In this document: one piece after another, positions 2,664-34,017 of the stretch
How the letters are laid out: each line of letters opens with the position of its first letter
Position numbering within the stretch: position 1 is the first letter of the stretch
Origin: Armatimonadota bacterium
GTDB taxonomy: Bacteria; Sysuimicrobiota; Sysuimicrobiia; Sysuimicrobiales; Sysuimicrobiaceae
Assembly (NCBI GenBank): GCA_031432545.1
Contig: JAVKGX010000001.1
Span: 516,411-580,410, forward strand
Length of the DNA: 64,000 bases
Reading direction: 5' to 3'
Position numbers and translations under genes: made by a program
Notes under the pieces: model-generated
What the model saw: the letters and a program-made list of their open reading frames with translations, nothing else
Told to the model about the DNA's origin: nothing
Database searches by the model: none

Positions 2664-4742
2664 ATGGCCCGAGAGTCTACGTCTTTGGACCAGCTGTGCA
2701 TCAACACGATCCGTACGCTGGCGATGGACGCGGTGCAGCACGCCGACTCCGGCCATCCCGGGGCGCCGATGGGTTTCGCGCCGGCGGCCTACGTCCTATG
2801 GACCCGCTTTTTGCGGCACAACCCGCGCAACCCACGCTGGGTGGACCGCGACCGGTTCGTGCTGTCGGCCGGCCACGCTTCGATGCTGCTGTACGCGCTG
2901 CTGCACCTCACCGGCTACGACCTGTCCCTGGAGGAGATCCGCAACTTTCGGCAATGGGGCAGCCGCACGCCGGGCCACCCTGAGTTCGGCCTGACTCCCG
3001 GTGTGGAGGCGACCACGGGGCCCCTAGGCCAGGGGTTCGCCAACGGCGTGGGGATGGCGATCGCCGAGCGGCACCTGGCCGCGACGTTCAACCGTCCCGG
3101 GCACGAGATCGTCGACCACTACACCTACGCGATGGTCTCCGACGGCGACCTGATGGAAGGCGTTTCCTCCGAAGCCGCGTCGATGGCCGGTCACCTGCAG
3201 CTGGGGAAGCTCATCTACCTGTACGACCGCAATCGGGTTACGCTGGCGGCCGGTGTCGACGTGACGTTCACCGAGGACGTCGCAAGACGCTTCGAGGCGT
3301 TGGGCTGGCACACCCAGGACGTGGACGACGGAAATGATCTGGACGCCATCGAGCAGGCCATACGGCGGGCCCGGGAAGAGATCGACCGCCCCTCGTTGAT
3401 CCTCGTGCGCACCGAGATCGCCTACGGCAGTCCCCACAAGCAGGGCACCTACCAGGCCCACGGCTCGCCGCTGGGCGAAGAGGAAGTGCGGCTGACCAAG
3501 GAGCGCCTGGGCTGGCCGTACTCGGAGCCGTTTGCGATCCCCGAAGACGCCCTGCGCCACTTCCGGAGGGCCGTAGAACGTGGGGCGCAACTGGAAGCCG
3601 AGTGGAACGCGCGCTTTGAGGTCTACGCGCGCGAGCATCCCGAGCTGGCCGAGACGTGGCGGCGCGCGTGGTCGAACGACTTGCCGCCGGACTGGGACGC
3701 GGACGTTCCGACCTTCGAGCCGGGTGAGAGGATCGCCACGCGCGTCGCTTCGGGCAGGGTGCTGAACGCGATCGCCGCACGGGTGTCGTGGCTGGTGGGC
3801 GGATCGGCGGACCTCAACCCCTCGACCAACACCGCGCTGAAGGGGGCGGGCGACTTTCTGAGCCCGCGGCGCCGGATCTCCGATCGTCAGGGCACCAGCG
3901 GCGGTCCGCTGGACTACACCGGCAGAAACTTGCACTTCGGTGTGCGCGAGCACGCGATGGGCGCGGCGTGCAACGGCATCGCCTACCACGGCGGGCTGAG
4001 GCCGTACGCCGCGACGTTTCTTCAGTTCTCCGACTACGAGCGGCCGGCACTGCGCATCGCCGCACTGTCGGAGCTCCCGGTGATCCACGTGTTCACGCAC
4101 GATTCGGTGTTCTTGGGCGAAGACGGCCCGACCCACCAGCCGGTCGAGCACCTGCCGTCCCTGCGCGCGATCCCCAACCTGGTCGTCATCCGCCCGGCCG
4201 ACGCGAACGAGACCGCGGTGGCGTGGCGGGTCGCGATGGAGCACACGCACGGCCCGGTCGCGCTGATCCTCACGCGGCAGGCGGTGCCGACCCTCGACCG
4301 GACGCGGTACGCACCGGCCGAGGGGCTGCGCCGCGGGGCGTACGTCCTTGCCGATCCGCCAGAGGGTGAGCCGGACGTCGTGCTGATGGCCTCCGGCTCC
4401 GAGGTCGCGCTGTGCGTCGAAGCCTACGAGAAGTTGGGCTCAGTCGGCGTGCGCGCGCGTGTGGTGAGTTTCCCGTCGTGGGAGTTGTTCGAAGCACAGC
4501 CCCGCGACTACCGGGATGCGGTCCTGCCGCCGGGCATCCGCAAGCGCCTGGCGGTCGAGGCCGCACGCCCGCTGGGGTGGGAACGCTACACGGGGTGCGA
4601 GGGGCGCGTGTTCGGGATCGACCGGTTCGGCGCCTCGGCCCCCTATGCGCGCATCGCCCGCGAGCTGGGGTTCACCGCCGGAAACGTCATGCGGATGGCG
4701 TTGGATCTGGTGGAGGACGGAGATCAGAGGGCAAGGCGATAG
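2664..4742 (+). CDS. tkt: Transketolase
   Basis: Thiamine-diphosphate enzyme moving two-carbon ketol units between sugar phosphates in the non-oxidative pentose phosphate pathway; it supplies ribose 5-phosphate for the prs and purine/pyrimidine genes further on. The 692-residue length is normal for the family. The N-terminal TPP domain has the Gly-Asp-Gly motif followed by LMEGVSSEA and YDRN. The middle pyrimidine-binding domain has RYxP-type sequence around [20 protein letters not shown], and the usual C-terminal domain follows. ATG 2664 is chosen because GGAGG lies five bases upstream; an in-frame opening extends further 5-prime but would run over the divergent CHAT gene. The downstream helicase starts three bases after the stop. 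Confidence 0.95.
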
Positions 4743-4745
4743 GGA

Positions 4746-6665
4746 ATGGGAGGCGGCCTGGCAGTTCGGGTGGAAGGGATCTTCGGCAGCGCCCTGCCGA
4801 CCCGGCTGGCGGGTTACGAGCCCCGGCCGGCGCAGGTGGAGATGGCCGGCCGCGTCGCACGGGCGATCGAACGCCGACAGCACCTAATCGCCGAGGCCGG
4901 AACCGGCACCGGCAAGAGCCTCGCCTACCTGGTGCCCGCCGCGCTGCACGCGCTGCAGGAAGGGGAAGTTGCCGTCGTCTCGACCGCAACCCACAACCTG
5001 CAAGAGCAGCTGATGCGCAAGGACCTGCCGGTGGTGCGCGACCTCCTCGGGGGCGACCTGGTCTTCGCCGCGATCAAGGGGTTGGCGAACTACCTGTGCG
5101 TGTGGCGGCTGGATCGCGAGATCGAGCGGTTCGGGTTCGCGCGCGACGAGTTCGTCGACGCGATCGCGCGTTGGGCGCAGACGACGCAGACGGGCGACCG
5201 CTCCGAGCTGCCGTTCGTCGCGCGCGGATGGCACCAGGTCAACGCGGATCCCGACCACTGCATCGGGCTGGACCGTTGCCGGGTCCCGCGCTGCTTTATG
5301 ATCGAGGCGCGCCGTGCGGCGGCGTCCGCGCACGTGGTTGTCGCCAACCACCACCTCGTACTCGCCGACTTGCTGCTCAAGGACACCATGGGACCGAACG
5401 GGGGCATTCTTCCGGCGTACTCGGTCATGGTGTTCGACGAAGCGCACATGCTGGAGGAGGCGGCCACACAGGTCTTCGGGCTGGAGATCGGCCACGTCCG
5501 CGTGCAGCGGATCGCCGCCGAGGCGGCCCGCCGGGGGTGGGTGAGCGCACGGATCACCGATGCCCTGCTGAGCGCCTCGCAGGCGTTCTTCGCCCAGGTC
5601 GGCACCCACCGGCCGGCGGTCCTGCCGTCGCTGCCGCAGGCCGCTGCGGACGCGCTCGTCGCAGCGCTGAAGGCGGTGCGCGACGCCCTGGAGGACGTTG
5701 TCGGCGACGACGAGGCAACTTCCGAGGAGGTGAGGAAGCTCGCCGGCCGCACCGAGCGGGTCGTGCGCGAGTTGCGCCAGATCCGCGAGGGGTCGGGTGA
5801 CGCGTACGTCGTGTGGGTGGCACCGGACGAGCGCAACCCCGCCCTGCGCGCCTCTTTGGTGTGGGTGGGCGATCGGTTCGCCTCGCTGCTGGCCTCCCAC
5901 GTCCCGACCGCCGTGTTCACCAGTGCGACCCTCGCCGTCGCCGGGACGCTCGCCCACTTCGCCTCCCGCATCGGGTTGGGCCCGGACGAGTTCGACACCC
6001 TGGTTGCGCCCTCGCCGTTCGCCTTCGGCGAGCAAGCCGCGCTGTACGTTCCGCCGCATTTACCGGATCCCTCTTCGGAGGACTTCCTGCCAGCGGCGGT
6101 CGACGAGATCGAGCGCGTGCTGCGGTTCGTCGGCGGACGCACCTTGGTGCTGTTCACCTCCTACCGCAACCTGGACTCCGCATACCTGGCGCTGTCCGGC
6201 CGCGTGCCCTATCCGCTCCTGCGCCAGGGGGACGCGCCGCGCGATCGGCTGCTGCGTGAGTTCGCCGAGCGCACAGACTCGGTGCTGCTGGGCACGGAGT
6301 CGTTCTGGCAGGGCGTCGACGTCCCCGGGGAGTCCCTCTCTTGCGTCGTCATCGACAGGCTGCCGTTCGACGTCCCCGACGACCCGGTCACGCAGGCGCG
6401 GATGCAGGCGGTGGTGCGCGAAGGCGGCGACGCGTTCTGGGACTTCCAGCTGCCCCAGGCGGTGCTGCGGTTGCGGCAGGGCGTGGGCCGGCTGATCCGT
6501 CACAGTACCGACCGAGGGCTGGTGGTCATCCTAGATGGGCGGATCCTGCGCCGCCGTTACGGGAGCGTCTTTCTGGCTTCCCTGCCTCCGATGCGGAGGA
6601 TAAAGAAGCTGGAGGAGGCAGACCGCGTGTCAGCCTGTCCAGGCCGCGACGAGGATGCCATGTAG
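4746..6665 (+). CDS. dinG: DinG/XPD-type ATP-dependent DNA helicase with 4Fe-4S cluster
   Basis: Superfamily 2 helicase of the DinG/Rad3 group, which unwinds 5-prime to 3-prime and is usually linked to repair of R-loops or stalled forks. Residues 51-58 (AGTGTGKS) form Walker A and DEAH is at 231-234. Four cysteines at 118, 172, 178 and 183 sit between motifs Ia and II, the position of the iron-sulphur cluster in XPD/DinG. The C-terminal half has the ATP-binding QGVDVPGE and GVGRLIRH motifs. No nuclease domain is fused, unlike the Firmicutes DinG/DnaQ fusions. The ATG lies three bases after the tkt stop, suggesting co-transcription. The 3-prime end overlaps the convergent membrane-protein gene by 36 bases. 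Confidence 0.9.
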   Translation: MGGGLAVRVEGIFGSALPTRLAGYEPRPAQVEMAGRVARAIERRQHLIAEAGTGTGKSLAYLVPAALHALQEGEVAVVSTATHNLQEQLMRKDLPVVRDLLGGDLVFAAIKGLANYLCVWRLDREIERFGFARDEFVDAIARWAQTTQTGDRSELPFVARGWHQVNADPDHCIGLDRCRVPRCFMIEARRAAASAHVVVANHHLVLADLLLKDTMGPNGGILPAYSVMVFDEAHMLEEAATQVFGLEIGHVRVQRIAAEAARRGWVSARITDALLSASQAFFAQVGTHRPAVLPSLPQAAADALVAALKAVRDALEDVVGDDEATSEEVRKLAGRTERVVRELRQIREGSGDAYVVWVAPDERNPALRASLVWVGDRFASLLASHVPTAVFTSATLAVAGTLAHFASRIGLGPDEFDTLVAPSPFAFGEQAALYVPPHLPDPSSEDFLPAAVDEIERVLRFVGGRTLVLFTSYRNLDSAYLALSGRVPYPLLRQGDAPRDRLLREFAERTDSVLLGTESFWQGVDVPGESLSCVVIDRLPFDVPDDPVTQARMQAVVREGGDAFWDFQLPQAVLRLRQGVGRLIRHSTDRGLVVILDGRILRRRYGSVFLASLPPMRRIKKLEEADRVSACPGRDEDAM

Positions 6666-21351: not shown

Positions 21352-21465
21352 ATGGCGCAGACGGGCGAACCTTTCCCCCGTATGGGTCCGTAGGACCAGG
21401 CAGGACCGGGCCCCTGCCGGGCGACGTTGCATGCGTCGGCGGGGCCGACCAGATGCCGTGTGCGC

Positions 21466-24400
21466 ATGCGAAGGGCCATTTCGATCGCAGCACTCGCACT
21501 CTTCGTCGCACTCTTGCTCGCGACCGCCACGGCGCTGTACCTGCTGCGCACCGGGGCAGTCGCCGACCGCATCCGCGGCGAAATGATGCGCGCCCTGCAA
21601 GACGCGCTCGGCCGCGATGTGTCCGTGGGGCGGCTGCGGGGCGACCCGTGGAGGGGGATCGTCCTGGAGGACATCCGGATCGCGCGCCACGAGCACCTGG
21701 CCGAGGGGGCGTTGCTGCGCGCCCGTTCGGCGACCATCACGTTCGACTTCGGCGCGCTGCTCGTTGACCTGTGGTCGGGCAGCCGCACCACCATCCCCGC
21801 GATCCGGCGTGTGGCCGTGGACGCTCCCATCCTCGCCCTGGTGCGCGGGGCGGACGGTCGGTGGAACGTGGAAGACCTCTTCCGTCCGCCACCGCCCGAA
21901 GCCCCGCCGACGCCGCCACCACCTGCGTTTCGCGGTGAGATCCACATCGCCCAAGGCGTGGTGCACTATCTGGATCGGTTCACCAGCCCGCACCTCGACT
22001 TCCGGGCCCTGCTGACCAACGTCGAGGCGACGTTCTCGCTGCGCGACAACCCGTTGCTGCGCGTCGCCGGGCGCGGCCGCGCCGCTGCCGGTGGGCCCTC
22101 GGACGTCGAGGTGCGCGGCTGGGTGCAGATCGAAGACGGCACACTCGATGTGGACCTGCGCGCCGACGGGTTTCCGGTGAGCACGTGGGGGAACTACTTG
22201 CTGCCGAGCCCGCGCGTGCGCTGGGAACGCGGCGCCGCGTCGGCGGCGCTGCATCTGTACAGCGTCCCGCACGCCGCCGGACCGACCCTGGACTTCCAGG
22301 GTACGGTGGATTTGCACGGCGCCGCAGTGCGACTGCTGCCGGAGGGGATTTCGCTGACCGGGCTGGTGGGTCGCATGCAGGTCGAAACGACGGCGCTGCG
22401 GACGGATGCGCTGCGGGTCCAGGCCGGCCGCGGCTCCGCCCGGGTGCGGGGTGAGGTGCTGCTGGCCGGCAGGGGGCAGCTGGATCTGGAGGTGGACGCA
22501 CAGCGCCTCGACCTGGCGGTGGTGCGCCGCCTGTTCTTCCCGAACGCCGTGGCGATGCGGGGAGAGGCGACTGGCAGGCTGCGTCTTTTCGGACCGATGG
22601 ACGCGGTGCGCATCCAGGGCAGCGTGCGCTCACCTCGGGCGGTGATCGAGGAGGTTGCTGTCCACAACGTGGCGACGGATCTGCACTATGCCGGCGGCAT
22701 GCTGGCGCTGACGAACCTGCACGCGGCCGCCGCCGGTGGGATGCTTCGCGCCGACCTCGTCTTGGGCACCGAGGACGCGCGGTACTTCGCGGCGGCGACC
22801 GTCGAGCGCCTGCCGACCGATCTGGCCGGGGGGTTCGGCTTGGTGCTGCCGGTGCAGACACGGGCGAGCGGCTCTCTCATTGTGGGCGGCGGCCCCGATG
22901 GTCAACGGGTGGTCGGTGCCCTCGCCGGCGAGGGCGGTTCGGCATTCGGGTTTCCGATCGACACCCTGCGCGCCAGTTTCGCCTACGACGGTGGCCGCCT
23001 GCGTCTGCACAGCGCCGTGGCACGGCGCGGTCCGATGTCACTGGCGGCGTCGGGGACCGTCTTCGAGGGCGGCGATCTGGACGTCTTCGCCGTTGCACGC
23101 GGCGTGCCGCTGCGGCTGGTGACGGACCGCATCGGGAGTGCCGACCAGCTCGGCGGAACGCTCGGCTACGCGGGGCGCATCCGTGGCAGTTCTCAGATGC
23201 CGGTGCTCGACGGCACCGTACTCCTCACCGACGGTTTCGTGGGTCCGCTTGCGTTCGACGACTGGGTGGGGGAGCTGACCCTGTCTTTTGCACAACTGGA
23301 CGTGCGGTGGTCGACCCTGCGCGACGGCACCGATCTGTACGGCATCGCCGGTCAGGCGCGCTGGGGTGCTGACCCGCGGCTTGCCCTCACGATGCGGACC
23401 GAGGGTGTGCGCGCGTCGCGCCTGGCCGAACTGGCACTGCTGCCCGTCCCGGTGGACGGACGCGTGGAGGGGGCGCTGCGGGTCACGGGGACGCCGCAAC
23501 GCCCACGGGTGGACGGCGACGTGCGCCTGCTGCGCGGGGCGGTCGCCGGCCAGCGGGTAGACGAAGCGCGCGCGCGTTTCGTCTGGCAATCCGGCCGGCT
23601 ACACCTGCAGGAGGCGACCGGGCGCGCCAACAGTTCCACGCTGCGGCTGGCCGGCACGGTCGACGAGCGGGGCGGGCTGCGGCTGTCGCTGCTAGCCGAC
23701 CGCATCCGGCTGGAGGAGATTGGCGCACTGGCCAACCCGTACTTACGCGTCCGGGGCGACGTGAGCCTGGAAGGATCGCTGACCGGAACCGTCGGCGACC
23801 CGGTGATCGACGCCCGGGTGAACTCCAGCCGCATCGTCTTGAACGGGCAGGTCTTCGACGGCGTCGACGGGCGCGCGCGGTGGCGGTCGGGTGTGCTGTC
23901 GCTGCTGCCGCTGCGTCTGCACCAAGGCCGTTCCACCTACGTCGCCGAGGGCTGGTTGAGGCCTGTGGGCACGCCGACGGCGCAGCTCTCGTTGGATGTC
24001 CGCGATGGACGGCTGGCCACACTGCTGGCCATCTCCGACAGCCCGCTGGACATGGACGGCCTGCTGGAGGGCCGCCTGGCGCTGTCCGGACCGCTGGCCA
24101 ATCCGCGCGCGGAGTTGAACCTGTCGATGCGCGACGGACATTACAACCGGTACCCGATTCGATCGGCGATCGGGCGGTTGGTCCTGAGCGACCGGAGGAT
24201 CACGATCCGCGATCTGGAGGTGGTGCCCAAGCAGGGGCGCCTGCGGGCCGAGGGGTTCGTGGACCTGGACGGTGCAAGCGAGATCGAAATCGGCGGCGAG
24301 GGACTGGAGGTCGACGCGCTGCGACCCGTGCTGCGTCTGCGCCACCCGCTGGCCGGCACCATGGACTTTACGCTGCAGATGTCCGGTCCGCTGTCCGAGC

Positions 24401-25815
24401 CCGTCGTCGGACTCTCGCTGCAGGCTGCGGAGTTCGGTGTGGGCGCCCCGGCCGTCGATCGCGTGCTGGGACAGGTCTTCTACCGGGAGGGAACGATCAA
24501 CATCCAGCAGATCCTGCTCGAAGCGCACGGACAGCGGGCCCGGATCGAAGGCCAGATTCCCGCGCGCGCCGACAGACTGTCGCTGGATCCGACACGGCCG
24601 CTGTCCCTGCGGCTGTCCGCGGACGGGACGGACCTGAGCCTGCTCCGGCTACTGACCCCTTCCGTGGAGGAGGCAACCGGCACCCTAGAGTTCCAGGTGG
24701 ACGTGACCGGCACGACCGCCGAGCCTGCGATGGCAGGGTTCGCGCGCGTGCGCTCGGGCGGGTTGCGGATCGGCGGGCTGAACCAGCCGATCGAGGACCT
24801 CCAGCTCGATCTGCGCTTCGACCAAAGCCGCGCCGTCTTGGAGCGCCTGCACGCAGACGTCGGCGGCGGGCGGCTGGCGGCCAACGGGCAGGTGACGTTC
24901 CGAGACCTGCGTCCGGATGCAGCGGACCTGCGGATGGGTGCAACTGGGATCCGGATCGAGGTCCCGCCCGTCTACCGAGGCCGGGTCGACGGCGAGATCC
25001 GGTTGGACGGCCCCCTATCCGCCTTGCGCCTGAGCGGCCGCATCACGCTGGGTGCAGGCGAGTTGCTGCTGGCTCTGCCTGCCGCCACCACGAGTGCGAA
25101 CCGGGCCGCCTTTCCGCTCTCATTCGCCCTCGACCTGGTCGCCGGCGACGACCTGTTCGTGGTCGCTGGTCCCGTCCGGCTGGGTGTGAGCGGCCAGCTG
25201 CGGTTGGGCGGCACGCTGGCGCGGCCCACGCTCGCCGGGACCGTGTCTGCAGGAGCGGGGGAGTTCCACGCGTTCGGGACCACGTTCGTGCTGGAGGAAG
25301 GCACGGCCACGTTCCAGGAGTTCCGCGGCGTAGAGCCGATGATCACGGCGCGGGCGCGGACGCGCGTGGGGGACACCACGGTCTTCGTGCACATCCGAGG
25401 CACACCGGGCGACATGCAGCTGTCGCTGTCGAGCGATCCGCCGCTGCCGCACGATCGCATCGTGGCGTTGCTGGCAGCGCAGACGGGAATCTCTCAGGCA
25501 CTGGAGGGGAACGTCGAGGCGCTGCTGCGTCAGCAGTTGACGCGCCTGCTGTTCGGCGAGTTCGAAGCGCGGTTGCGTCAGGCGCTGGGGTTGAGCGAGC
25601 TGCGGATCGAGTATGATTTCGAGAGTCCGCTGCGGCTGCGGCTGGGTCAGTTGCTGGTTGAGAACCTGTACCTGACCCTGACGACGATCTTCGATGCGCA
25701 GACACGGTTCATCTGGGCGCTGGAGTACCGGTTCTCTCCCAGCGTCGCGTTGGCGTTCACGTACGACCAGCGAGGTCTGTGGCTGCTCTTGCTGCGTGCC
25801 CGGTTCGCATGGTAG
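21466..25815 (+). CDS. tamB: TamB/AsmA-like translocation and assembly protein
   Basis: 1449 residues. One N-terminal transmembrane anchor (ISIAALALFVALLLATATAL) is followed by >1300 residues of repeating short amphipathic beta strands, the beta-taco groove of TamB/AsmA-like proteins that carries lipid between membranes. The C-terminal DUF490 domain is well kept: AGEFHAFGTTFVLEEGTATF, then ITARARTRVGDTTVFVHIRG, SSDPPLPHDRIVALL and FRFSPSVALAFTYDQRG at the end. ATG 21466 is chosen because the anchor starts there; no strong ribosome site is seen. BamA is encoded two genes later and TamA is absent, the usual arrangement in diderm Terrabacteria, where TamB works with BamA. Confidence 0.9.
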   Translation: MRRAISIAALALFVALLLATATALYLLRTGAVADRIRGEMMRALQDALGRDVSVGRLRGDPWRGIVLEDIRIARHEHLAEGALLRARSATITFDFGALLVDLWSGSRTTIPAIRRVAVDAPILALVRGADGRWNVEDLFRPPPPEAPPTPPPPAFRGEIHIAQGVVHYLDRFTSPHLDFRALLTNVEATFSLRDNPLLRVAGRGRAAAGGPSDVEVRGWVQIEDGTLDVDLRADGFPVSTWGNYLLPSPRVRWERGAASAALHLYSVPHAAGPTLDFQGTVDLHGAAVRLLPEGISLTGLVGRMQVETTALRTDALRVQAGRGSARVRGEVLLAGRGQLDLEVDAQRLDLAVVRRLFFPNAVAMRGEATGRLRLFGPMDAVRIQGSVRSPRAVIEEVAVHNVATDLHYAGGMLALTNLHAAAAGGMLRADLVLGTEDARYFAAATVERLPTDLAGGFGLVLPVQTRASGSLIVGGGPDGQRVVGALAGEGGSAFGFPIDTLRASFAYDGGRLRLHSAVARRGPMSLAASGTVFEGGDLDVFAVARGVPLRLVTDRIGSADQLGGTLGYAGRIRGSSQMPVLDGTVLLTDGFVGPLAFDDWVGELTLSFAQLDVRWSTLRDGTDLYGIAGQARWGADPRLALTMRTEGVRASRLAELALLPVPVDGRVEGALRVTGTPQRPRVDGDVRLLRGAVAGQRVDEARARFVWQSGRLHLQEATGRANSSTLRLAGTVDERGGLRLSLLADRIRLEEIGALANPYLRVRGDVSLEGSLTGTVGDPVIDARVNSSRIVLNGQVFDGVDGRARWRSGVLSLLPLRLHQGRSTYVAEGWLRPVGTPTAQLSLDVRDGRLATLLAISDSPLDMDGLLEGRLALSGPLANPRAELNLSMRDGHYNRYPIRSAIGRLVLSDRRITIRDLEVVPKQGRLRAEGFVDLDGASEIEIGGEGLEVDALRPVLRLRHPLAGTMDFTLQMSGPLSEPVVGLSLQAAEFGVGAPAVDRVLGQVFYREGTINIQQILLEAHGQRARIEGQIPARADRLSLDPTRPLSLRLSADGTDLSLLRLLTPSVEEATGTLEFQVDVTGTTAEPAMAGFARVRSGGLRIGGLNQPIEDLQLDLRFDQSRAVLERLHADVGGGRLAANGQVTFRDLRPDAADLRMGATGIRIEVPPVYRGRVDGEIRLDGPLSALRLSGRITLGAGELLLALPAATTSANRAAFPLSFALDLVAGDDLFVVAGPVRLGVSGQLRLGGTLARPTLAGTVSAGAGEFHAFGTTFVLEEGTATFQEFRGVEPMITARARTRVGDTTVFVHIRGTPGDMQLSLSSDPPLPHDRIVALLAAQTGISQALEGNVEALLRQQLTRLLFGEFEARLRQALGLSELRIEYDFESPLRLRLGQLLVENLYLTLTTIFDAQTRFIWALEYRFSPSVALAFTYDQRGLWLLLLRARFAW

Positions 25816-25837
25816 GAAGCACAGTCCGGAGGTCGCG

Positions 25838-26485
25838 GTGTTCGACGACTACCTGAAAGAGCTTCGTAAGGTCCGCACCCTAACCGCTCCACAGGAACGT
25901 CGGCTGTGGGAGCGGTACAAGCTGCGGGGCGACCTCCGCGCGCGGAGGCGGCTCATCGAGGCGTACCAGCCGCTGGTGTTCAAGACGGTCATGGCGCTGC
26001 GCCTTCCGCCCGCGGTGCTCATGGACATGATCCAAGAGGGTACCGTGGGGCTGATCGAGGCGGTGGAGCGCTTCGATCCGGCGCGCGGTTTTCGGTTCTC
26101 GACGTTCGCCACCTACCGCATCCGAGGAAACGTGCTCAACGCACTGCGCAGGGAAAAGGGCGGGGTGCTGTCGCTGGAACAGGAACTGATGGCGCACACC
26201 GATCTGCCCGTGGCGACGCGGCTCGCGGACCCGGCTGCCCTGGAGGCGCTGGGCGCGGTGGAAGACGGGGTGTTCCTTGAGCAGGTCCTGCAAGCCATCG
26301 GCCGCTTGCCGGCCCGTGAGCGCGCGATCCTCTACGCGTTCTTCTTCGAGTCCAAAGAGCCGCAGGTGGTCGCACAGGAGATGCAGATCAGCGTCTCGCA
26401 CATGTACCGGCTGCAGAAGCAGGCGATCGCGCGCGTTCGCGAGATCCTCTTCCCGCCGCCGTCGCCGGGGCCGCAACAGGTTTGA
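25838..26485 (+). CDS. Sigma-70 family RNA polymerase sigma factor
   Basis: 215 residues from GTG 25838, with GGAGG five bases upstream. Region 2 is clear: LIEAYQPLVFKTVMALRLPP, DMIQEGTVGLIEAVERFDPA, RFSTFATYRIRGNVLNALRR, including the core-binding and -10 melting segments. Region 4 lies at the C-terminus: IGRLPARERAILYAFFFESK then VAQEMQISVSHMYRLQKQAI, a helix-turn-helix for the -35 box. A short linker replaces most of region 3. It is larger than a typical ECF factor and resembles the SigB/SigF/FliA class. It sits in an unbroken run between tamB and bamA, 22 bases after tamB, so it may control envelope genes; this is inferred from position only. Confidence 0.88.
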   Translation: MFDDYLKELRKVRTLTAPQERRLWERYKLRGDLRARRRLIEAYQPLVFKTVMALRLPPAVLMDMIQEGTVGLIEAVERFDPARGFRFSTFATYRIRGNVLNALRREKGGVLSLEQELMAHTDLPVATRLADPAALEALGAVEDGVFLEQVLQAIGRLPARERAILYAFFFESKEPQVVAQEMQISVSHMYRLQKQAIARVREILFPPPSPGPQQV

Positions 26486-27059: not shown

Positions 27060-27110
27060 GTCTCAGGATGGGGTCCCGCGGCCAGACCTGTTGTGTTGGC
27101 GGAGGTGCGC

Positions 27111-28931
27111 GTGTGGCGGCGTAGTCGTCGGGTCGTGTTCGCGTGGTTGGTGATCGCCGCAGTGGCGGCGGCCCAGGGTGCGCTCGCGCAGACGCCCGCG
27201 CCCACCCCTTCACCCGCACCCACCCCGTCGCCGTCGCCCACGCCCGCGACCACCCCCACGCCGGCGCCGACGCCGGAGCGCCCGGTGCGGATCACCGAGA
27301 TCCTCGTCCGCGGTACCGAACGCGTCTCCCCGGAGGTCGTGTTCGGTGCGATCGGGTCGCGCGTGGGTGAGTTCCTGGATCGGGACCGTGTGCGCCAGGA
27401 CGTCGAGCAGATCCTGGCCCTCGGCCTGTTCGCGGACGTCGTCGTGCGCATCGAGGCCACCGCCGAGGGCGTGCAGATCGTCTTCATCGTCATCGAGAAC
27501 CCGGTGGTCGAGCGGGTCGAGATCACGGGCAACACCGTCGTCTCCACGGAAGACATCCGACGGGTGCTGGGCGTGAGGGAAGGTGAGGTCCTCAACACCG
27601 TGGACCTGCGTGCCGGGGCGCGGAACGTCGAGAGGGTCTACCAGGACCGGGGCTACGTCCTGGTGCGGGTGTCCGACCTGGAGTTCCGGCCGGACGGCAC
27701 GCTGCGGGTGGAGATCCGGGAGGGCGTGCTGGAGAGGATCGAACTGCGCGGACTGCGCAGGACCCGGCCGGCACTTGTGCACCGCGTGCTGGCGATTCGG
27801 GAAGGCGAGGTCTTCAACATCAACCGGGTCAACCGCGACCTCCAGGAGGTGTTCGAGACTGGCGTGTTCGAGAACGTTCGGGCGACCCCGCAGCCGGGCT
27901 CGGACCCGGACAAAGTCCTGCTGGTCATCGAGTTCGAAGAGCGCCAGAGCCGCGAGTTCGGTTTCGGCGTCGGGTACAGCCCGGAGGCGGGATTCCTGGG
28001 CAACGTCCAGTTCACGGAGCGCAACCTGCACGGGATGGGCCGCACGATCACCCTGTCTTACAACCGCAACGTCAGCTCGCTGATCGGAGGGATCGGGGAG
28101 TCGCCGATCACAGGGCAGCCGGCAGAGAACATCGTGATCCAGTACCGTGACCCGTGGTTCTTGGAGCGGGGCCAGTCGCTGGCCCTCGAGCTGCACGACA
28201 CGACGCAGACCGTCGATGATCCGGTGCTGGGCGTGAAGTACGCGCAGACGCTACTGGGCGGCTCGGCGACGCTTTCGCGCAGGTGGACGAACGAGCTCAG
28301 CGGGGCGCTCACGTTGCGCACCGAGCAGACCAGCTTCGCGGTGCTCGAGGGTACCTCTCCGGTGCCGCTGACACCGGGTCTGGTGAACGCGCTGAAGGTG
28401 GACGCGCTGTTCGACCTGCGCGACGACCCGCGCGATGCCCGGCGGGGCTTCCGAGCCAGCGGGTCGGTCGAGTACGCCTTCCGGTTCCTGGGGGGGGACT
28501 TCGAGTTCCTCAAGTACCAGGCCGAGTACGTCCACTACTTCCCGCTGTGGGAGGGTACGCTGGTCGGGCGAATCCGCGCGGCCGCGTCCACCGGATTCTT
28601 GCCCCTGCAGGAGCAGTATTTCCTGGGCGGCCAGAACAGCGTCCGCGGCCTGCCCGGCGGCGCGTTTCGCGGCAACAGCATGGCGTTGGCCACCCTCGAG
28701 TACCGCCTGCCGCTGGCGGCCGTCTTCCCCGACCTGCGGGACATCACCGCGATCCTGTTCGCGGACGCCGGTGGCATCTCCGCGTCGGGGTTCGGCTTCG
28801 TCGAGACCGTGCAGTTCTCGTACGGCGTCGGGGTGCTGATCCGATCCCCGATCGGTCCCATCCGCGTCGACTACGCGTTCGGCCCCAACGGCCGGACGCA
28901 GACATGGCTGTACTTCGGGCATCCGTTTTGA
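27111..28931 (+). CDS. bamA: BamA-family outer membrane protein assembly factor
   Basis: 606 residues from GTG 27111, chosen because GGAGG lies six bases upstream. After a signal peptide ending GALAQ comes a ~27-residue Pro/Thr/Ser linker of PTPSP-type repeats, unusual for BamA. Then three POTRA domains follow (ITEILVRGTERVSPEVV..., VERVEITGNTVVSTEDIRRV, LERIELRGLRRTRPALVHRV), fewer than the five of E. coli. The 16-strand barrel begins near residue 285 and carries the conserved lid-loop motif NSVRGLPGG (VRGF/Y equivalent) and ends in Phe, the outer-membrane signal. It inserts beta-barrel proteins such as the SLH-porin, BtuB and, elsewhere, LptD. Confidence 0.95.
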   Translation: MWRRSRRVVFAWLVIAAVAAAQGALAQTPAPTPSPAPTPSPSPTPATTPTPAPTPERPVRITEILVRGTERVSPEVVFGAIGSRVGEFLDRDRVRQDVEQILALGLFADVVVRIEATAEGVQIVFIVIENPVVERVEITGNTVVSTEDIRRVLGVREGEVLNTVDLRAGARNVERVYQDRGYVLVRVSDLEFRPDGTLRVEIREGVLERIELRGLRRTRPALVHRVLAIREGEVFNINRVNRDLQEVFETGVFENVRATPQPGSDPDKVLLVIEFEERQSREFGFGVGYSPEAGFLGNVQFTERNLHGMGRTITLSYNRNVSSLIGGIGESPITGQPAENIVIQYRDPWFLERGQSLALELHDTTQTVDDPVLGVKYAQTLLGGSATLSRRWTNELSGALTLRTEQTSFAVLEGTSPVPLTPGLVNALKVDALFDLRDDPRDARRGFRASGSVEYAFRFLGGDFEFLKYQAEYVHYFPLWEGTLVGRIRAAASTGFLPLQEQYFLGGQNSVRGLPGGAFRGNSMALATLEYRLPLAAVFPDLRDITAILFADAGGISASGFGFVETVQFSYGVGVLIRSPIGPIRVDYAFGPNGRTQTWLYFGHPF

Positions 28932-28956
28932 AGACGACAGCGGGCAGTGATAGCAT
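28928..28956 (+). promoter_or_regulatory. Internal sigma-70 promoter before the skp cluster
   Basis: TTGAAG (28928-28933), 17 bases, TAGCAT (28951-28956). The -35 overlaps the last codons of bamA, and the predicted start is about 57 bases before GTG 29020. It would let the chaperone and lipid A genes be transcribed apart from tamB-bamA. Confidence 0.5.
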
Positions 28957-29019: not shown

Positions 29020-29472
29020 GTGGACCGCAAGACCAAGATCCTCATGATCGCGGTCGGAGCACTCGTCGCCGTGGCGCTCGCCGTGTGGGGTCTGATGGTG
29101 ACGGGCGGAACGGCGATCGGCCAGCAGCTCACGATCGGGTACGTGGACATGCAGCGGGCGCTGGACAGCCATCCGAGGAAGGCCAGTTCGGAGGAAGCTC
29201 TGAATCAGTTCGCTCGCGCGCGCATGACGCAGGCGCAGCAGCAGGCGCGCGGCAGGTCGCAGGCGGAGCAGACGCGCCTGATGCAGCAGGCGCAGCAGGA
29301 GATCCTCCGCCGGCGGACCGAGCTGCTGTCGGCCCTGGACAAGGACATCCGGGCCGCGGTCGAAAAGGTGGCGCGTGAAGCGGGCGTCATGATCGTCCTG
29401 GATCGTTCCGTCGTGCTGTACGGAGGCACGGACCTGACGGAACCCGTGATTCGGGAACTGAAGGGGAACTGA
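29020..29472 (+). CDS. Skp/OmpH-family periplasmic chaperone, first of three
   Basis: 150 residues from GTG 29020, with GAGGAGGGG a few bases upstream. An N-terminal hydrophobic segment (ILMIAVGALVAVALAVWGLM) acts as signal or anchor. The OmpH fold follows: the edge strand IGYVDMQRALDSHP, a helical arm rich in Gln and Arg (ARMTQAQQQARGRSQAEQTR), and the closing segment AREAGVMIVLDRSVVLYGGT with DLTEPVIRELK at the end. Skp trimers hold unfolded outer-membrane proteins on their way to BamA. Two further members follow within six bases each. Confidence 0.85.
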   Translation: MDRKTKILMIAVGALVAVALAVWGLMVTGGTAIGQQLTIGYVDMQRALDSHPRKASSEEALNQFARARMTQAQQQARGRSQAEQTRLMQQAQQEILRRRTELLSALDKDIRAAVEKVAREAGVMIVLDRSVVLYGGTDLTEPVIRELKGN

Positions 29473-29477
29473 TCCGG

Positions 29478-30674
29478 ATGCACGTGCTTCGGCTCGCCGC
29501 TGCGCTGTCGGCGGCGCTCTTGCTGACCGGTTGCGCCGGCACCCCGCGGTCGGTACCCTCGCCGAGCCCGGTGGCGGCGACCCCGCGCGCCACGCGCGTG
29601 GGACTGGTCGACCTGGACCGCGTCGCCGAGCAGCATCCCCGGGCGCAGGAGCTGGCGGCGCTGCGCCGCAGGGTCGCCGAGACCGAGGTGGCAATGCGCA
29701 TCCCGCTCGCGCCGCCCCAGATCGCGCAGCCGCAGATCCGCGACCTCGGACCGCGCCTGCAGGCCCGCACCCGGGAACTGCTCGAACAGCAGGCGGCGGA
29801 GCTCCGCCGGACATACCAGGAAGAACTCCGCGTGCTCGAGCGGCAGGGCAAAGAGGAGGTCGAGCGGTTCGCCCGGCAGGTCCAGGCCGAGCAGCAGGAA
29901 AAGCTCACCCAGCGGCAGGAGGCGCTGCAGGCGGAACTCCACGCGCGTGCGGAGGCCAAGCGCAAGGAGATGGAGCCCAAGCTCCGCGCCTACGAGGGGG
30001 AGGTCGCGCGGGAGTACCGGATCCCGCTGCTCAACCTGCGCCTGAAACTCGAGGCCGTGCAGCACACCGATCGGCAGCAGTTCGAGAGGCTGGTGGCCGA
30101 GTACGAGAGGCTGCAGCGAGAGCGCGAGGCGAAGGTCGCTGCCTTCCAGGCCGAGCAGCAAAAGGAGTTCGAGGCGTTCGTCAAGGAAAGCGAGGAGCAG
30201 GCGCGCTCGCAGATGGAAGCCTACCGCGCGGAGCTGGAAGCCGAGGCGCGTCGGCGCATCGAAGAGCGCGAGGCCATCGTGCGCAACCGTCTGCGCGAGG
30301 CGGCGGCGGCGCGAGAGCGCCAGTTCCGGGAGGTCATGCGCGCCAGGGAGCGCGAGCTCGTCAGTGGTGCGCAGGGAGAGGCCCGGGACGCGGTGGCGGC
30401 TGCGCGGCGCGAGCTGGAGCGGATCGTCGAGGAGGCCCGCGCGAAGTATGTGGCAGAAGAACGCGCGCGCCAGGAGCAGTTGCAGAGCCAGCTGGTGGCC
30501 CTGCGCACCCAGCAGGCGAACCTGGAGACCGCGATCCTCGCGGAGGTCCGCATAGAGGTGGCCGCGATCGCTCTGGAGCAGAACCTGGACGTTGTGCTGG
30601 TGCGCTACGTCTCCCACATCGGTGGCGTCGACATCACCGACCAGGTGCTGCGTCGATTGAGGAACAAGAGGTAG
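29478..30674 (+). CDS. Large OmpH-like lipoprotein with long coiled-coil arm
   Basis: 398 residues, more than twice the usual Skp length. A lipobox LLLTGC puts the modified Cys at 19. The OmpH body is split: the first strand is TRVGLVDLDRVAEQHPRAQE (residues ~38-58), and the closing part is LEQNLDVVLVRYVSHIGGVD and ITDQVLRRLRNK at the C-terminus. Between them lie ~280 residues of charged heptad-like sequence very rich in Glu, Arg, Gln and Ala (LARQVQ, QEALQAELHARAEAKRK, ARRRIEEREAIVRNRLREA). If it folds like Skp, the arms would be unusually long and could span much of the periplasm. The lipid anchor fixes one end in a membrane. Function otherwise as for Skp; inferred. Confidence 0.8.
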   Translation: MHVLRLAAALSAALLLTGCAGTPRSVPSPSPVAATPRATRVGLVDLDRVAEQHPRAQELAALRRRVAETEVAMRIPLAPPQIAQPQIRDLGPRLQARTRELLEQQAAELRRTYQEELRVLERQGKEEVERFARQVQAEQQEKLTQRQEALQAELHARAEAKRKEMEPKLRAYEGEVAREYRIPLLNLRLKLEAVQHTDRQQFERLVAEYERLQREREAKVAAFQAEQQKEFEAFVKESEEQARSQMEAYRAELEAEARRRIEEREAIVRNRLREAAAARERQFREVMRARERELVSGAQGEARDAVAAARRELERIVEEARAKYVAEERARQEQLQSQLVALRTQQANLETAILAEVRIEVAAIALEQNLDVVLVRYVSHIGGVDITDQVLRRLRNKR

Positions 30675-30680
30675 TTCTGG

Positions 30681-31151
30681 ATGTCGTGTGTCGGACGCCG
30701 TGTGTTTGCGGTCGGTCGTCGGTCCTCTGTGCGCGCGACCCGTCGCCTCCGGTTCGCCGTCGGAGGGTTGGCGGCGCTGATCGTCGCGCTCGTGTCGGTG
30801 GGCTGCCAGCGGCCCCAGATCGGTGTCGTGGACACGCAGCGCATCCTGGAGGAGAGCGTGCTGGCGCTGTCGCTGCAAAAGCAACTCAACGACCGCGAGA
30901 AGTTGATGGCGGCCGACCTGGCCGTCGCCGCCCAGCGCCTGGACCGCAGGGCGCTGGAGGAGCAGCGGTTGCTGTACCTGCGCGAACTCGAGCAGATGCG
31001 CGCCGACTTCGAGGAGCGGCTGAACCGAAGGCTGCGGGAGGTGGTCCAGGAGGTCGCGCGCGAAGAGAGGATCCGCGTGGTCCTCGCGAAGGGCCCTTCG
31101 GTCTACGGCGGGAGGGACCTGACGAATCGGGTGATCGAGAGGTTGAAGTAG
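30681..31151 (+). CDS. Skp/OmpH-like lipoprotein, third of three
   Basis: 156 residues from ATG 30681. A long basic N-terminus leads to a lipobox VSVGC (Cys42); GTG 30729 would give a more usual signal length. The mature part is a short Skp: [20 protein letters not shown], helical arm ([20 protein letters not shown]), closing segment [20 protein letters not shown] and [10 protein letters not shown]. The C-terminal pattern V-YGG-DLT is shared with the first copy, so these two are the closer relatives. Six bases separate it from the preceding gene and 67 from lpxD. Confidence 0.82.
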
Positions 31152-31218
31152 CGGGCCCAGCGCACTCCGCGGGGGTGGGGTCGCCGTGGCGGCCCCTTTC
31201 GCATATCTGGGGGCGGCG

Positions 31219-32211
31219 ATGAGGCTGAGCGAGATCGCAGGCCGGCTCGGCGGCGAACTCCGGGGCGACGGTGACATTGAGATCGTCCGGGTCGCCCAGC
31301 CGGACCGAGCCGGACCGGACGCGATCGCGGTCTGCGCCACGCCGCGCGCGCTGGACGAGGCGATCGCGGCTGGGGCGGGCGCGGTTGTGGTGCGTTCTGG
31401 GGAGGAACTGCCGGTTCCCTCGGTCCGGGTCGCCGACACCCGGCTGGCGCTGGCCGTGCTGCTGGAGATGTTCGGGCCCGCTCCGCACCGTCCCCTAGGT
31501 GTGCATCCCACGGCGGTGGTCGCGCCCACCGCGCAGCTCGGGCCGCAGGTCGCGATCGGCGCCCACGCGGCCATCGGCGAGGGTGCGCGGGTCGGCGCGG
31601 GCACGGTCATCCACGCCCACGTCTGCGTCGGCCCCGAGGCGACCGTCGGCGAGCGGTGCGTGCTCTACCCACACGTCGTGGTGGGCGAGCGCGTGCGGGT
31701 GGGCGACCGCGTGATCCTGCATGCAGGTGTGGTCCTGGGAGCGGACGGGTTCGGGTTCGTGGCGGGGCCGCACGGCCATCGCAAGATCCCGCAGGTCGGC
31801 ACCGTGGTGGTCGAAGACGACGTGGAGATCGGGGCCAACACCACGGTCGATCGGGCCACGCTGGGGGAGACGCGAATCGGTGAGGGGACGAAGATCGACA
31901 ACTTGGTCCAGATCGCGCACAACGTCCAGATCGGGCGGCGCTGTCTGATCGCCGCTCAGGTCGGGATCGCGGGCAGCTCTGTGATCGAAGACGGGGTCGT
32001 CCTCGCCGGCCAGGCGGGGGTCTCCGATCACGTGCGGATCGGCGCCGGCGCGGTGGTGCTGGGGAAGGCGGGCGTGACGAAGGACGTCCCGCCGGGGGCG
32101 ACCGTCTCCGGCTTTCCCGCCCGGGCGCACCGCGAGGAACTCCACGAACAGGCCATGCGCCGGCGCCTGCCCGAGCTGCTGCGCCTGCTGCAGCAGCGCC
32201 GGCGCCCTTGA
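31219..32211 (+). CDS. lpxD: UDP-3-O-acylglucosamine N-acyltransferase
   Basis: Third enzyme of lipid A synthesis; it adds the N-linked hydroxyacyl chain from acyl-ACP. 330 residues from ATG 31219, preceded by GGGGG at five bases and fitting the family start ([19 protein letters not shown]); GTG 31186 is an alternative. After the ~95-residue uridine-binding domain come hexapeptide repeats forming a left-handed beta-helix. ADGFGFV and the catalytic His234 in [10 protein letters not shown] match the family. The C-terminal helices bind ACP. The gene leads the lipid A part of the block. Confidence 0.95.
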
Positions 32212-32244
32212 CCCGTGGGGCCGCCCGTGCGCGATGGAGTCCTG

Positions 32245-34017
32245 ATGGTGGCGAAATCGGCGTGGTGGTTGTGGGTGATTGTCCCGATGGCGCTGGGGTT
32301 GCCCCCGGCGCACGCGCAGCTGCCCACGGTCGTGGTTGTTCCGGCCGCCTCGTCGGCCGCCATCACCGTCAACGGGATGCACGTGATGCGGCTGCACGGC
32401 CCCGACGCGGAATCCCGTGCCCAGGCGGTGGCGCACCGTCTGCGCGCTGTGCTTTCCGTCGCGCCGGTGCGCATCGAGGTGCAGCCGGATCGGACCGGCG
32501 TCCACCTGGTCGTGAACGGCCACCGGGCGGTGACCGCGGACACCGCTCAGGCGCGGGCAAACAACACCTCTCCGTACTTTCTAGCCCTGGCCTGGGCAAA
32601 GGCGCTGCGGCGAGCGCTGGACTTCCGGCAGATGTGGCTGCGCCCGTCTGCCGTGGCGGTGGCGCCGGGAGCCGAGGCGACGGTCGAGGTGCTGACCGTC
32701 CCGCGCGGCGCGGTCCACATCGGCGATCACGACCGCGGGGTGGCAGAGGTGCGTGCCGACGGCACCGACCGGTTGGTCGTGCGGGGCGTGTCGGCCGGGA
32801 CGGTCCGCGTCCCGATCTCCTACGAGGGGATACGGCGTGAACTCGTCGTCTCCGTGCGGCCGCTGGCCGGCGGCCTGCCCGCCTCGGTCCGTGTCGTCGT
32901 CACCGGCAATCCGGCGGGCGCCGACGTCGTGCAGGAGGCCGTCGCCCGCAGGCTCGAGCAGGAGGCCCACCTGGGCCCGGGCGCGTTCGTAGAAGTCCCG
33001 GCGGTACTGGCCGGACCGCTGGCGGAGGGTCGGCGGCACGTCGCGGCTGTGCCGGTGCGTGTCCGCAGCCCGTTCGCGTTGCCGGTCGAGGGGATCGTAC
33101 GGATCGTGGTCGACAACGAGCGCGCGACTCTCGCGCAACCCTCGCGCCTGTACGTCAGCAACAACCCCGAGCGGCTCGCCATGGACGGTACTGTGTTCCG
33201 CGAGACGATCGAGCCCGATACGGCGATCCGCATGCTGTACCACCACAAGAACGGGTCCGACAAAGACAAGGTCGTCACCGTCCGCATCCGCAACCCGAAC
33301 GGACAGCCCGCGCGGGTGCACCTCCAGGTGGCCACACCGAGGGCATGGCACGACACGATGGCCGTCGGCCACGCCGCGGCCCGCCGCTTTTTGGAGATGC
33401 TGATCTCGGGTGCAGGATACGTCCTGGAGATCCCCGCCGGCGGGGAGCACACGTTCACCGCCCAGCGGATGCCACCCGCATTCGTCGTGTCGGGTCTGCT
33501 CCAGGCGCAGCTGCTCGCCGGTGGACCGTTGGAGATCGCGGTCGCGGTCCGCGCCGCATACCTGCTGGAGCGCACCGTCACGCGCGACGTCGATCCGACG
33601 CCGCTGAGCCACCCGCGGGGTATCTTCTGCACGCCGGAGGTCGAGATCCGCAAGACGCTGGCGGTCGGGTCTGACGAAGTGGTCGAAATCGGGTCCAGCG
33701 GGCGCCTTGCGGATCTGCGCACCGGCAGGCTCCTCGCGGGCGACTACGGGGTGCTGTACCGGCTGCGCCTGGAGCTCCACAACCCCGGGGAGACGGAGGT
33801 GGAGGCGGATCTGTGGTTGCGTGCGGCCGGCGGTCCCGCCTACGCGACGTTCGTCGTCGACGGGCGCTTGGTCGATCTGTCCTATCTGGCGCCCCACCGT
33901 GAGGTGGCGCTGGTGTCGGTCCGATTGGCTCCCGGGCAGTCGGTCCCGGTGGAGCTGCTGACGATGCCGGAGGCGGCGTCGTCTTATCCGCTGAAGATCA
34001 CGTTGAGGGCGAGGTGA
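32245..34017 (+). CDS. Exported protein of unknown function inside the lipid A operon
   Basis: 590 residues from ATG 32245, with GGAG six bases upstream. Signal peptide with cleavage near PAHA-Q (24/25). Residues ~30-130 hold a small alpha/beta unit (AVAHRLRAVLSVAPVRIEVQ, then VHLVVNGHRAVTADTAQARA, then SPYFLALAWAKALRRALDF). Residues ~135-206 resemble the T2SS/T3SS pilus-formation N-domain (VAVAPGAEATVEVLTVPRGA, VHIGDHDRGVAEVRADG, LVVRGVSAGTVRVPI). Residues ~310-590 are beta-rich, Ig-like in feel, with GHAAARRFLEMLISGAGYVL and VSGLLQAQLLAGGPLEIAVA. No barrel signature and no C-terminal Phe. The stop overlaps lpxC by four bases, so it is made with the lipid A enzymes. I do not recognise a named family; a periplasmic envelope factor is the cautious reading. 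Confidence 0.7.
   Translation: MVAKSAWWLWVIVPMALGLPPAHAQLPTVVVVPAASSAAITVNGMHVMRLHGPDAESRAQAVAHRLRAVLSVAPVRIEVQPDRTGVHLVVNGHRAVTADTAQARANNTSPYFLALAWAKALRRALDFRQMWLRPSAVAVAPGAEATVEVLTVPRGAVHIGDHDRGVAEVRADGTDRLVVRGVSAGTVRVPISYEGIRRELVVSVRPLAGGLPASVRVVVTGNPAGADVVQEAVARRLEQEAHLGPGAFVEVPAVLAGPLAEGRRHVAAVPVRVRSPFALPVEGIVRIVVDNERATLAQPSRLYVSNNPERLAMDGTVFRETIEPDTAIRMLYHHKNGSDKDKVVTVRIRNPNGQPARVHLQVATPRAWHDTMAVGHAAARRFLEMLISGAGYVLEIPAGGEHTFTAQRMPPAFVVSGLLQAQLLAGGPLEIAVAVRAAYLLERTVTRDVDPTPLSHPRGIFCTPEVEIRKTLAVGSDEVVEIGSSGRLADLRTGRLLAGDYGVLYRLRLELHNPGETEVEADLWLRAAGGPAYATFVVDGRLVDLSYLAPHREVALVSVRLAPGQSVPVELLTMPEAASSYPLKITLRAR

Follow-up and report, generated by a model that had tools for sequence, protein, structure and literature searches.

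What could a bacterium do with three adjacent Skp/OmpH genes, two of which encode predicted lipoproteins and one of which carries a giant coiled-coil arm? The genes lie in a window, meaning the whole stretch of DNA analyzed (64,000 nucleotides; contig C1, 516411-580410), from an uncultured bacterium of the phylum Sysuimicrobiota (CSP1-3), its genome of 2.19 Mb lying in 21 contigs with a completeness rating of 100%. Three adjacent OmpH/Skp open reading frames, designated Skp1, Skp2, and Skp3, occupy positions 29020-31151 on the plus strand, between BamA and LpxD. An earlier sequence-only reading had described them as tandem paralogues, and their assignment to the OmpH family is supported. A whole-genome search found no OmpH match elsewhere in the same genome, the trio being all three of its OmpH places. 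The features of the locus, in window coordinates, are as follows.

21427..25815, plus strand: TamB (Pfam TamB, 166.7 bits)
27093..28931, plus strand: BamA (Pfam Omp85 and POTRA; TIGR03303 231.8 bits, under the equivalog cut-off of 297)
28928..28956, plus strand: proposed promoter, at chance level
29020 (GTG)..29472, plus strand: Skp1, short OmpH protein (Pfam OmpH 55.7 bits) with a signal peptide or signal anchor and without a lipobox
29478..30674, plus strand: Skp2, long-armed OmpH protein with a lipobox, 398 aa (open reading frame, Pfam, AF2, structure superposition)
29532..29534, plus strand: Skp2 predicted lipobox Cys19 (LLLTGC), after which come ~20 residues of Pro/Ser/Ala-rich linker (sequence, ortholog loci)
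29598..29699, plus strand: Skp2 OmpH body, N-terminal half (AF2 and VIA-align)
29745..30059, plus strand: Skp2 outgoing arm helix, mature residues 72-176 (AF2)
30003..30143, plus strand: Skp2 arm tip, EYRxPLLNLRLKxE ... ERDxK in the phylum (conservation in the alignment)
30072..30578, plus strand: Skp2 return helix, mature residues 181-349 (AF2)
30480..30671, plus strand: Skp2 OmpH body, C-terminal half (Pfam match 318-394; AF2; superposition)
30681..31151, plus strand: Skp3, short OmpH protein with a lipobox, 156 aa (Pfam OmpH 47.1 bits; AF2 pLDDT 84.7)
30804..30806, plus strand: Skp3 predicted lipobox Cys42 (VSVGC), 5 residues ahead of the body (Cys in 27/27 aligned rows)
31186..32211, plus strand: LpxD (TIGR01853, 343.9 bits)

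The cluster runs from TamB through a sigma-70-family gene, BamA, Skp1-3, LpxD, and a 600-aa open reading frame to the remaining Lpx/Lpt genes, which are LpxC, LpxA, LpxI, LpxB, and an LptA/LptD_N gene. TamB, BamA, and Skp beside lipopolysaccharide (LPS) genes make up the terrabacterial outer-membrane cluster type, described for diderm Firmicutes in the available text of PMC5007114, and this arrangement is found here. Judged from gene order, the TamB-BamA-Skp x3-Lpx context would count for a chaperone reading. The phylum now named Sysuimicrobiota is the CSP1-3 of PMC11604079, and a text search of the accessible portion of that paper returned no mention of an outer membrane. The frame of the sigma-70-family gene (25694-26485, between TamB and BamA) overlaps the end of the TamB open reading frame. 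The 600-aa frame (32215-34017, between LpxD and LpxC) is without a Pfam or NCBIfam match. The promoter that had been proposed just before the trio, TTGAAG-17-TAGCAT, is present but has just 8 of 12 consensus bases, which is chance level: three sites of this type were seen on the plus strand between 27000 and 34000, versus 1.5 (sd 1.2) expected, and no site reached 9/12.

Skp1 and Skp3 exceed the curated cut-off of Pfam OmpH (PF03938, 32.4 bits) with 55.7 and 47.1 bits, whereas Skp2 of the window falls below it at 21.4 bits; no NCBIfam cut-off was reached by any of the three. The low score of Skp2 fits the alternative that it is no Skp at all, in which case it would be a coiled-coil lipoprotein of other descent that resembles OmpH by chance. 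A Foldseek search with the Skp2 model points the same way, as it gave no match at E<=0.001 and ranked long coiled coils above Skp (rank 27, probability 0.60). So does the Skp2 profile A1, which among PDB sequences prefers apolipoproteins (best E 0.0006) over OmpH chains (~0.04-0.05); with profiles A2 and A3, OmpH chains come first (E 1e-6 and 3e-5). We read the apolipoprotein match, like those to chemoreceptor, SMC, and other long-coil structures, as composition common to long helices rather than kinship.

The sequence-only reading had staked itself on an OmpH body in the second gene, and superposition located this body in the AF2 model. Skp2 superposes on Escherichia coli Skp (1sg2_C) with a Z of 11.1 and an rmsd of 3.8 over 133 of 142 residues, and on Flavobacterium johnsoniae SkpA (8gl8_E) with a Z of 10.8 and an rmsd of 4.3 over 137 of 152, both superpositions running from model residue ~20 through to the end. 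The residues aligned to 1sg2_C are spread over model positions 19-377, so the superposition passes over the greater part of the arm. A chemoreceptor coil heads the superposition list (Z 11.3, model residues 72-283), so Z by itself is not specific for Skp; several further long-coil structures score Z ~10-11, and values below ~13 are frequent for long helices with this tool, so that weight was laid on the near-complete coverage of Skp rather than on Z. The AF2 models of both Skp2 and Skp3 contain the N-terminal strand, helical hairpin, and C-terminal strand plus helix of an OmpH body, in Skp3 as E6-9, the hairpin, E92-95, and H107-114. Chance resemblance is therefore very improbable, indeed nearly refuted, with a model that superposes on Skp from one chain end to the other, long-armed relatives that pass the Pfam cut-off (L053 34.3, L081 35.4, and L083 39.4 bits), and two clear OmpH genes flanking Skp2. 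The short lipoproteins of L081 and L083 score under the cut-off (27.6 and 29.5 bits). Alignments of the Skp1, Skp2, and Skp3 families do not share the same invariant residues.

Mature Skp2 was modeled with AF2 as a monomer from 19 sequences (the window plus the loci of the A1 contig scan; pLDDT 87.4) and Skp3 from 17 sequences (pLDDT 84.7). In mature-residue numbering, the Skp2 model has strand 23-25, helices 28-34 and 38-56, and a Pro-rich break at 57-71, followed by helix 72-176, turn 177-180, helix 181-349, strand 354-356, and helix 369-378. The arm is, in this model, an antiparallel helical (coiled-coil) hairpin. Skp3 helices 19-42 and 48-88 stand where the arm helices of Skp2 do, and the Skp2 return helix exceeds that of Skp3 by 128 residues, a difference of ~19 nm if each residue adds 0.15 nm. 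For comparison, the E. coli periplasm is roughly 20-25 nm wide. On paper, the modeled arm could nearly bridge the gap between the two membranes, and by this length estimate either of the roles suggested earlier, spanning the periplasm or holding barrel proteins near a membrane, would be possible. The giant arm claimed from the sequence is a real and conserved long coiled-coil insert, but it comes to ~246 extra residues and not 280, body plus arm measuring 358 residues in Skp2 versus 112 in Skp1.

The hairpin also has evidence independent of the model. In the alignment of 30 orthologues, the number of residues leading out to the tip covaries with the number leading back to the body (r 0.98, Spearman 0.99), as an antiparallel hairpin predicts, the p-value of this covariation being overstated because the sequences are related. 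There are nine distinct pairs of outgoing and return lengths, such as 122/148, 133/163, and 148/178. Length changes in steps of 11 and 15 residues, and the hydrophobic period is 3.725 in both arm helices; both features are consistent with hendecad/pentadecad packing. Among clades the arm ranges from 122 to 167 residues out and from 148 to 182 back.

Within Sysuimicrobiota, a Skp2 match is found in 40 of the 43 genomes. A synteny survey, suggested as a check on the first reading, bore out the trio as a fixed unit: the order Skp1-Skp2-Skp3-LpxD held in 30/30 loci save at contig ends, which account for the absence of Skp3 from one locus (29 present) and of LpxD from others (27 present). In 13 of these 30 loci, the upstream sequence retrieved reached as far as BamA. 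Elsewhere in the phylum, G005 (rated 97% complete), G006, and G015 show no OmpH at all. A contig scan with the single Skp2 protein gave no match, and one with alignment A1 gave 20 loci, adding little to the matches from the phylum genomes. An extra canonical OmpH of 106 bits (G018:C142:75-494) lies on a contig apart from the cluster of its genome and may be contamination.

Both lipoboxes read from the window, LLLTGC in the second gene and VSVGC in the third, are present and recur across the phylum. The strict lipobox pattern (after PROSITE PS51257) is found in Skp1 at 0/30 loci, in Skp2 at 28/30, and in Skp3 at 28/29, and a Cys precedes the body in 29/30 and 29/29 loci for Skp2 and Skp3, respectively. 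In window Skp3, position -3 of the lipobox is Ser, and the signal would be of more usual length if translation began at a later GTG. By eye, all three proteins have the N-terminal hydrophobic stretch of an export signal. Skp2 and Skp3 are apparently lipoproteins, as predicted from these patterns. Spacing from Cys to body is mostly 22-27 residues in Skp2, with extremes of 16 and 38, and mostly 4-5 residues in Skp3.

The anchor of both probably sits at the inner membrane, a placement made because LolA models gave no match in the window's own genome. BamD models gave no match there either, and a SurA-type match is present. Halanaerobiales, likewise diderm Firmicutes, possess LolA according to the available text of PMC5007114, so a missing LolA match is no proof of an inner-membrane address. 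For Negativicutes, the accessible part of PMC5491611 reports no Lol parts and no lipid found on its candidates, in data that it describes as not conclusive; among the possibilities it raises are proteins tethered to the inner membrane that span the periplasm.

That bacteria usually have one Skp agrees with our counts, which are of matches rather than of individually checked genes: OmpH was found in 64 of 75 genomes outside the phylum, once in 45, twice in 15, and three times in 4. Profile A1, built from Sysuimicrobiota only, was searched against 386 genomes, comprising 43 Sysuimicrobiota and 343 others; it matched 10 of the others, 7 of them in the C-terminal part only. G168 and G304, of one family, match both profile ends in one frame, and G131 matches positions 226-370 in a 426-aa frame; rescored on the fetched DNA, A1 covers 6-364 in G304, 37-370 in G131, and 4-367 in G168, there in two pieces. 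Profile A5 (A1 plus G168, G304, and G131) gave no further full-length match among the 343 others, those three matching by construction.

The phylum of G168, here the second phylum, was represented by 118 genomes taken as a sample of a larger group. A match is present in 108 of them, and in 84 it is one continuous match from profile position <=45 to >=370, a count that includes G168 and G304, themselves part of the profile. The 12 best-scoring loci, which are not a random sample, all hold a fused double Skp1, a long Skp2 with Cys, a short Skp3 with Cys, and LpxD; BamA is present in 11/12, and the strict lipobox is found in 11/12 for both Skp2 and Skp3. Gene content at these loci indicates that the trio is common to Sysuimicrobiota and the second phylum. 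Skp1 of the second phylum (L081:5760-6566, L095-L106) has two OmpH domains fused in one chain. The phylum of G131, the third, has a long protein in 4 of 7 genomes, G131 included. Here a Cys, scored by eye, is on the short neighbor in 4/4, and the long protein has a hydrophobic N terminus without Cys; a third OmpH gene did not appear at any of the loci read. With the lipobox on the short OmpH, the anchor need not sit on the long one. This third lineage (L083, L107-L110) is low in GC (L083 0.27).

A tree was reconstructed with the arm cut out (102 columns, 108 rows), leaving out the L100 Skp2, whose N part was misplaced, and L108, one of four short proteins of the G131 phylum. Skp2 of the first two phyla forms one group with support of 100/99, and by this alignment a common origin of Skp2 in the two phyla, by descent or transfer, is supported. 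Second-phylum Skp2 nests within first-phylum Skp2 with weak support (38-41), and a topology that unites first-phylum Skp2 to the exclusion of the second phylum is not rejected (p-AU 0.414). Skp3 of both phyla is joined at just 76/24. The long proteins of the third phylum are placed away from Skp2, and joining them is not rejected (p-AU 0.443). The tree has few columns; its Skp2 branches are long, and long-branch attraction is possible.

Aligned sequences mark the tip as the best-conserved part of the arm, separately in the first two phyla; its motif is LLNLRLKLE in the window, RLALRTKLS in L081 of the second phylum, and IVNLNLKIS in L083 of the third. In Sysuimicrobiota, conservation is 0.562 at the tip, 0.529 and 0.535 in the body halves, and 0.409 and 0.362 in the shafts. 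Among 25-residue windows of the arm, conservation peaks in the one beginning at residue 176, with 0.598, a value that 0 of 5000 shuffles reach (maximum, 0.562). In the second phylum, aligned on its own (12 sequences), the best window begins one residue ahead of the motif and scores 0.704; 81 of 20000 shuffles reach the tip score, a weaker result, yet in the same place.

As the likeliest reading we tentatively propose, at a probability of roughly 0.42, that Skp2 acts as a chaperone anchored in a membrane, with its conserved tips docking far from the anchor on a partner that may be BamA or TamB. The trio would be the three-part Skp set of an ancient BamA cluster, in which Skp1 is presumably the soluble Skp, Skp3 may be held tight to the membrane by its 5-residue tether, and Skp2 would sit on its ~20-residue linker with its base probably at the inner membrane. 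In the available text of PMC10994853, the Skp trimer is described as tentacles hanging from a body. A putative Skp2 trimer could receive emerging barrel proteins near its base, and its arms, ~20 nm if straight, would extend toward the outer membrane; with the body lipid-tethered, arms of this length would bring the tips near the opposite membrane. There the tips would bind a fixed partner, for which BamA and TamB, encoded in the same cluster, are the likeliest candidates, and the hand-over of clients would thereby be local.

A first alternative is that Skp2 is a repurposed Skp that serves as scaffold or tether, fixing an envelope complex (e.g., BamA-TamB) or spacing the membranes without chaperoning any client. 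A tip better conserved than the shaft that carries it would suit such a docking strut. There is a precedent in F. johnsoniae SkpA, which the accessible text of PMC10994853 presents as a structural component of the type 9 translocon whose contact surfaces are conserved. We consider a scaffold rather unlikely, however, as arm length varies among clades and the partner is putative. The same clade-to-clade variation, as aligned, appears loose for a ruler and would count against the docking chaperone too. Alternatively, the long arms may enclose larger barrels as an enlarged cage, its base at either membrane and its tips meeting each other or the client. Tentacles that trap clients in a cavity are the known Skp mode (PMC10994853, available text), and both arm helices lengthen together; weak, unspecific client binding needs no tip better conserved than the shaft, though, and a cage seems distinctly unlikely. 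A more far-reaching form of the docking chaperone would make Skp2 a trans-periplasmic, lipid-anchored strut that has long partnered BamA in Terrabacteria where neither BamD nor LolA is found. Its base would stand at the inner membrane while its conserved tips contact BamA or TamB, so that barrels travel along a fixed path rather than by diffusion; this we regard as unlikely.

E. coli Skp is soluble, and its tentacles are short. It shares with Skp2 the OmpH body and the helical hairpin between the body halves (1sg2, 1u2m), whereas Skp2 has a lipobox, a far longer arm, and a conserved tip. The BAM lipoproteins BamB-E are tied to BamA, as proposed for Skp2, and a BamD match is absent from the window's genome. 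Their folds differ from that of Skp2. Flavobacterium SkpA/SkpB (8gl8) are likewise more than one Skp at a bamA locus, encoded in one operon and with divergent duties (PMC10994853 and PMC12611786, available text); Bacteroidota have two Skps beside BamA (PMC10994853, same portion). SkpA is extended relative to E. coli Skp, but C-terminally, while Skp2 is extended in the arm, and SkpA serves as a periplasmic marker in the accessible part of PMC12611786, unlike the predicted lipoprotein Skp2. The Negativicutes/Halanaerobiales cluster likewise has TamB, BamA, up to three Skps, and LPS genes (PMC5007114, PMC5491611), with up to three Skps beside BamA in Negativicutes (PMC5007114) and four in Veillonella parvula, three adjoining BamA (PMC5491611). 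Vpar_0530, a Veillonella Skp, is a predicted lipoprotein that may be inner-membrane (PMC5007114, PMC5491611). By description, these Skps differ from Skp2 in that a giant arm goes unmentioned in the available texts of both papers.

Multi-Skp clusters and one predicted Skp lipoprotein, in Veillonella, are thus already known from these excerpts. No report of a long-armed Skp was found in the literature searched, by title and abstract start and with subscription journals mostly outside its scope; as far as this search shows, what is new is the giant arm with its conserved tip, together with a trio that is fixed and occurs in more than one phylum. According to the accessible text of PMC13067283, direct contact of soluble Skp with BAM was never shown, and terrabacterial BamA functions with no lipoprotein subunits added to it. 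The passage of barrel proteins through the periplasm is understood mainly from Proteobacteria with a soluble Skp. A conserved, long-armed, apparently anchored Skp with a conserved far end, encoded beside BamA in two phyla or more, is a testable candidate for a physical link. Skp2 is also a candidate for a lipoprotein that works with BamA in lineages described as lacking such partners.

One smaller observation concerns the neighborhood of the trio. In seven longer loci (L038, L041, L042, L044, L045, L046, and L053), a protein of ~430 aa, whose L044 copy (4013-5305) is without a Pfam match, stands between BamA and Skp1 and carries the motif VRFRS.SIP.
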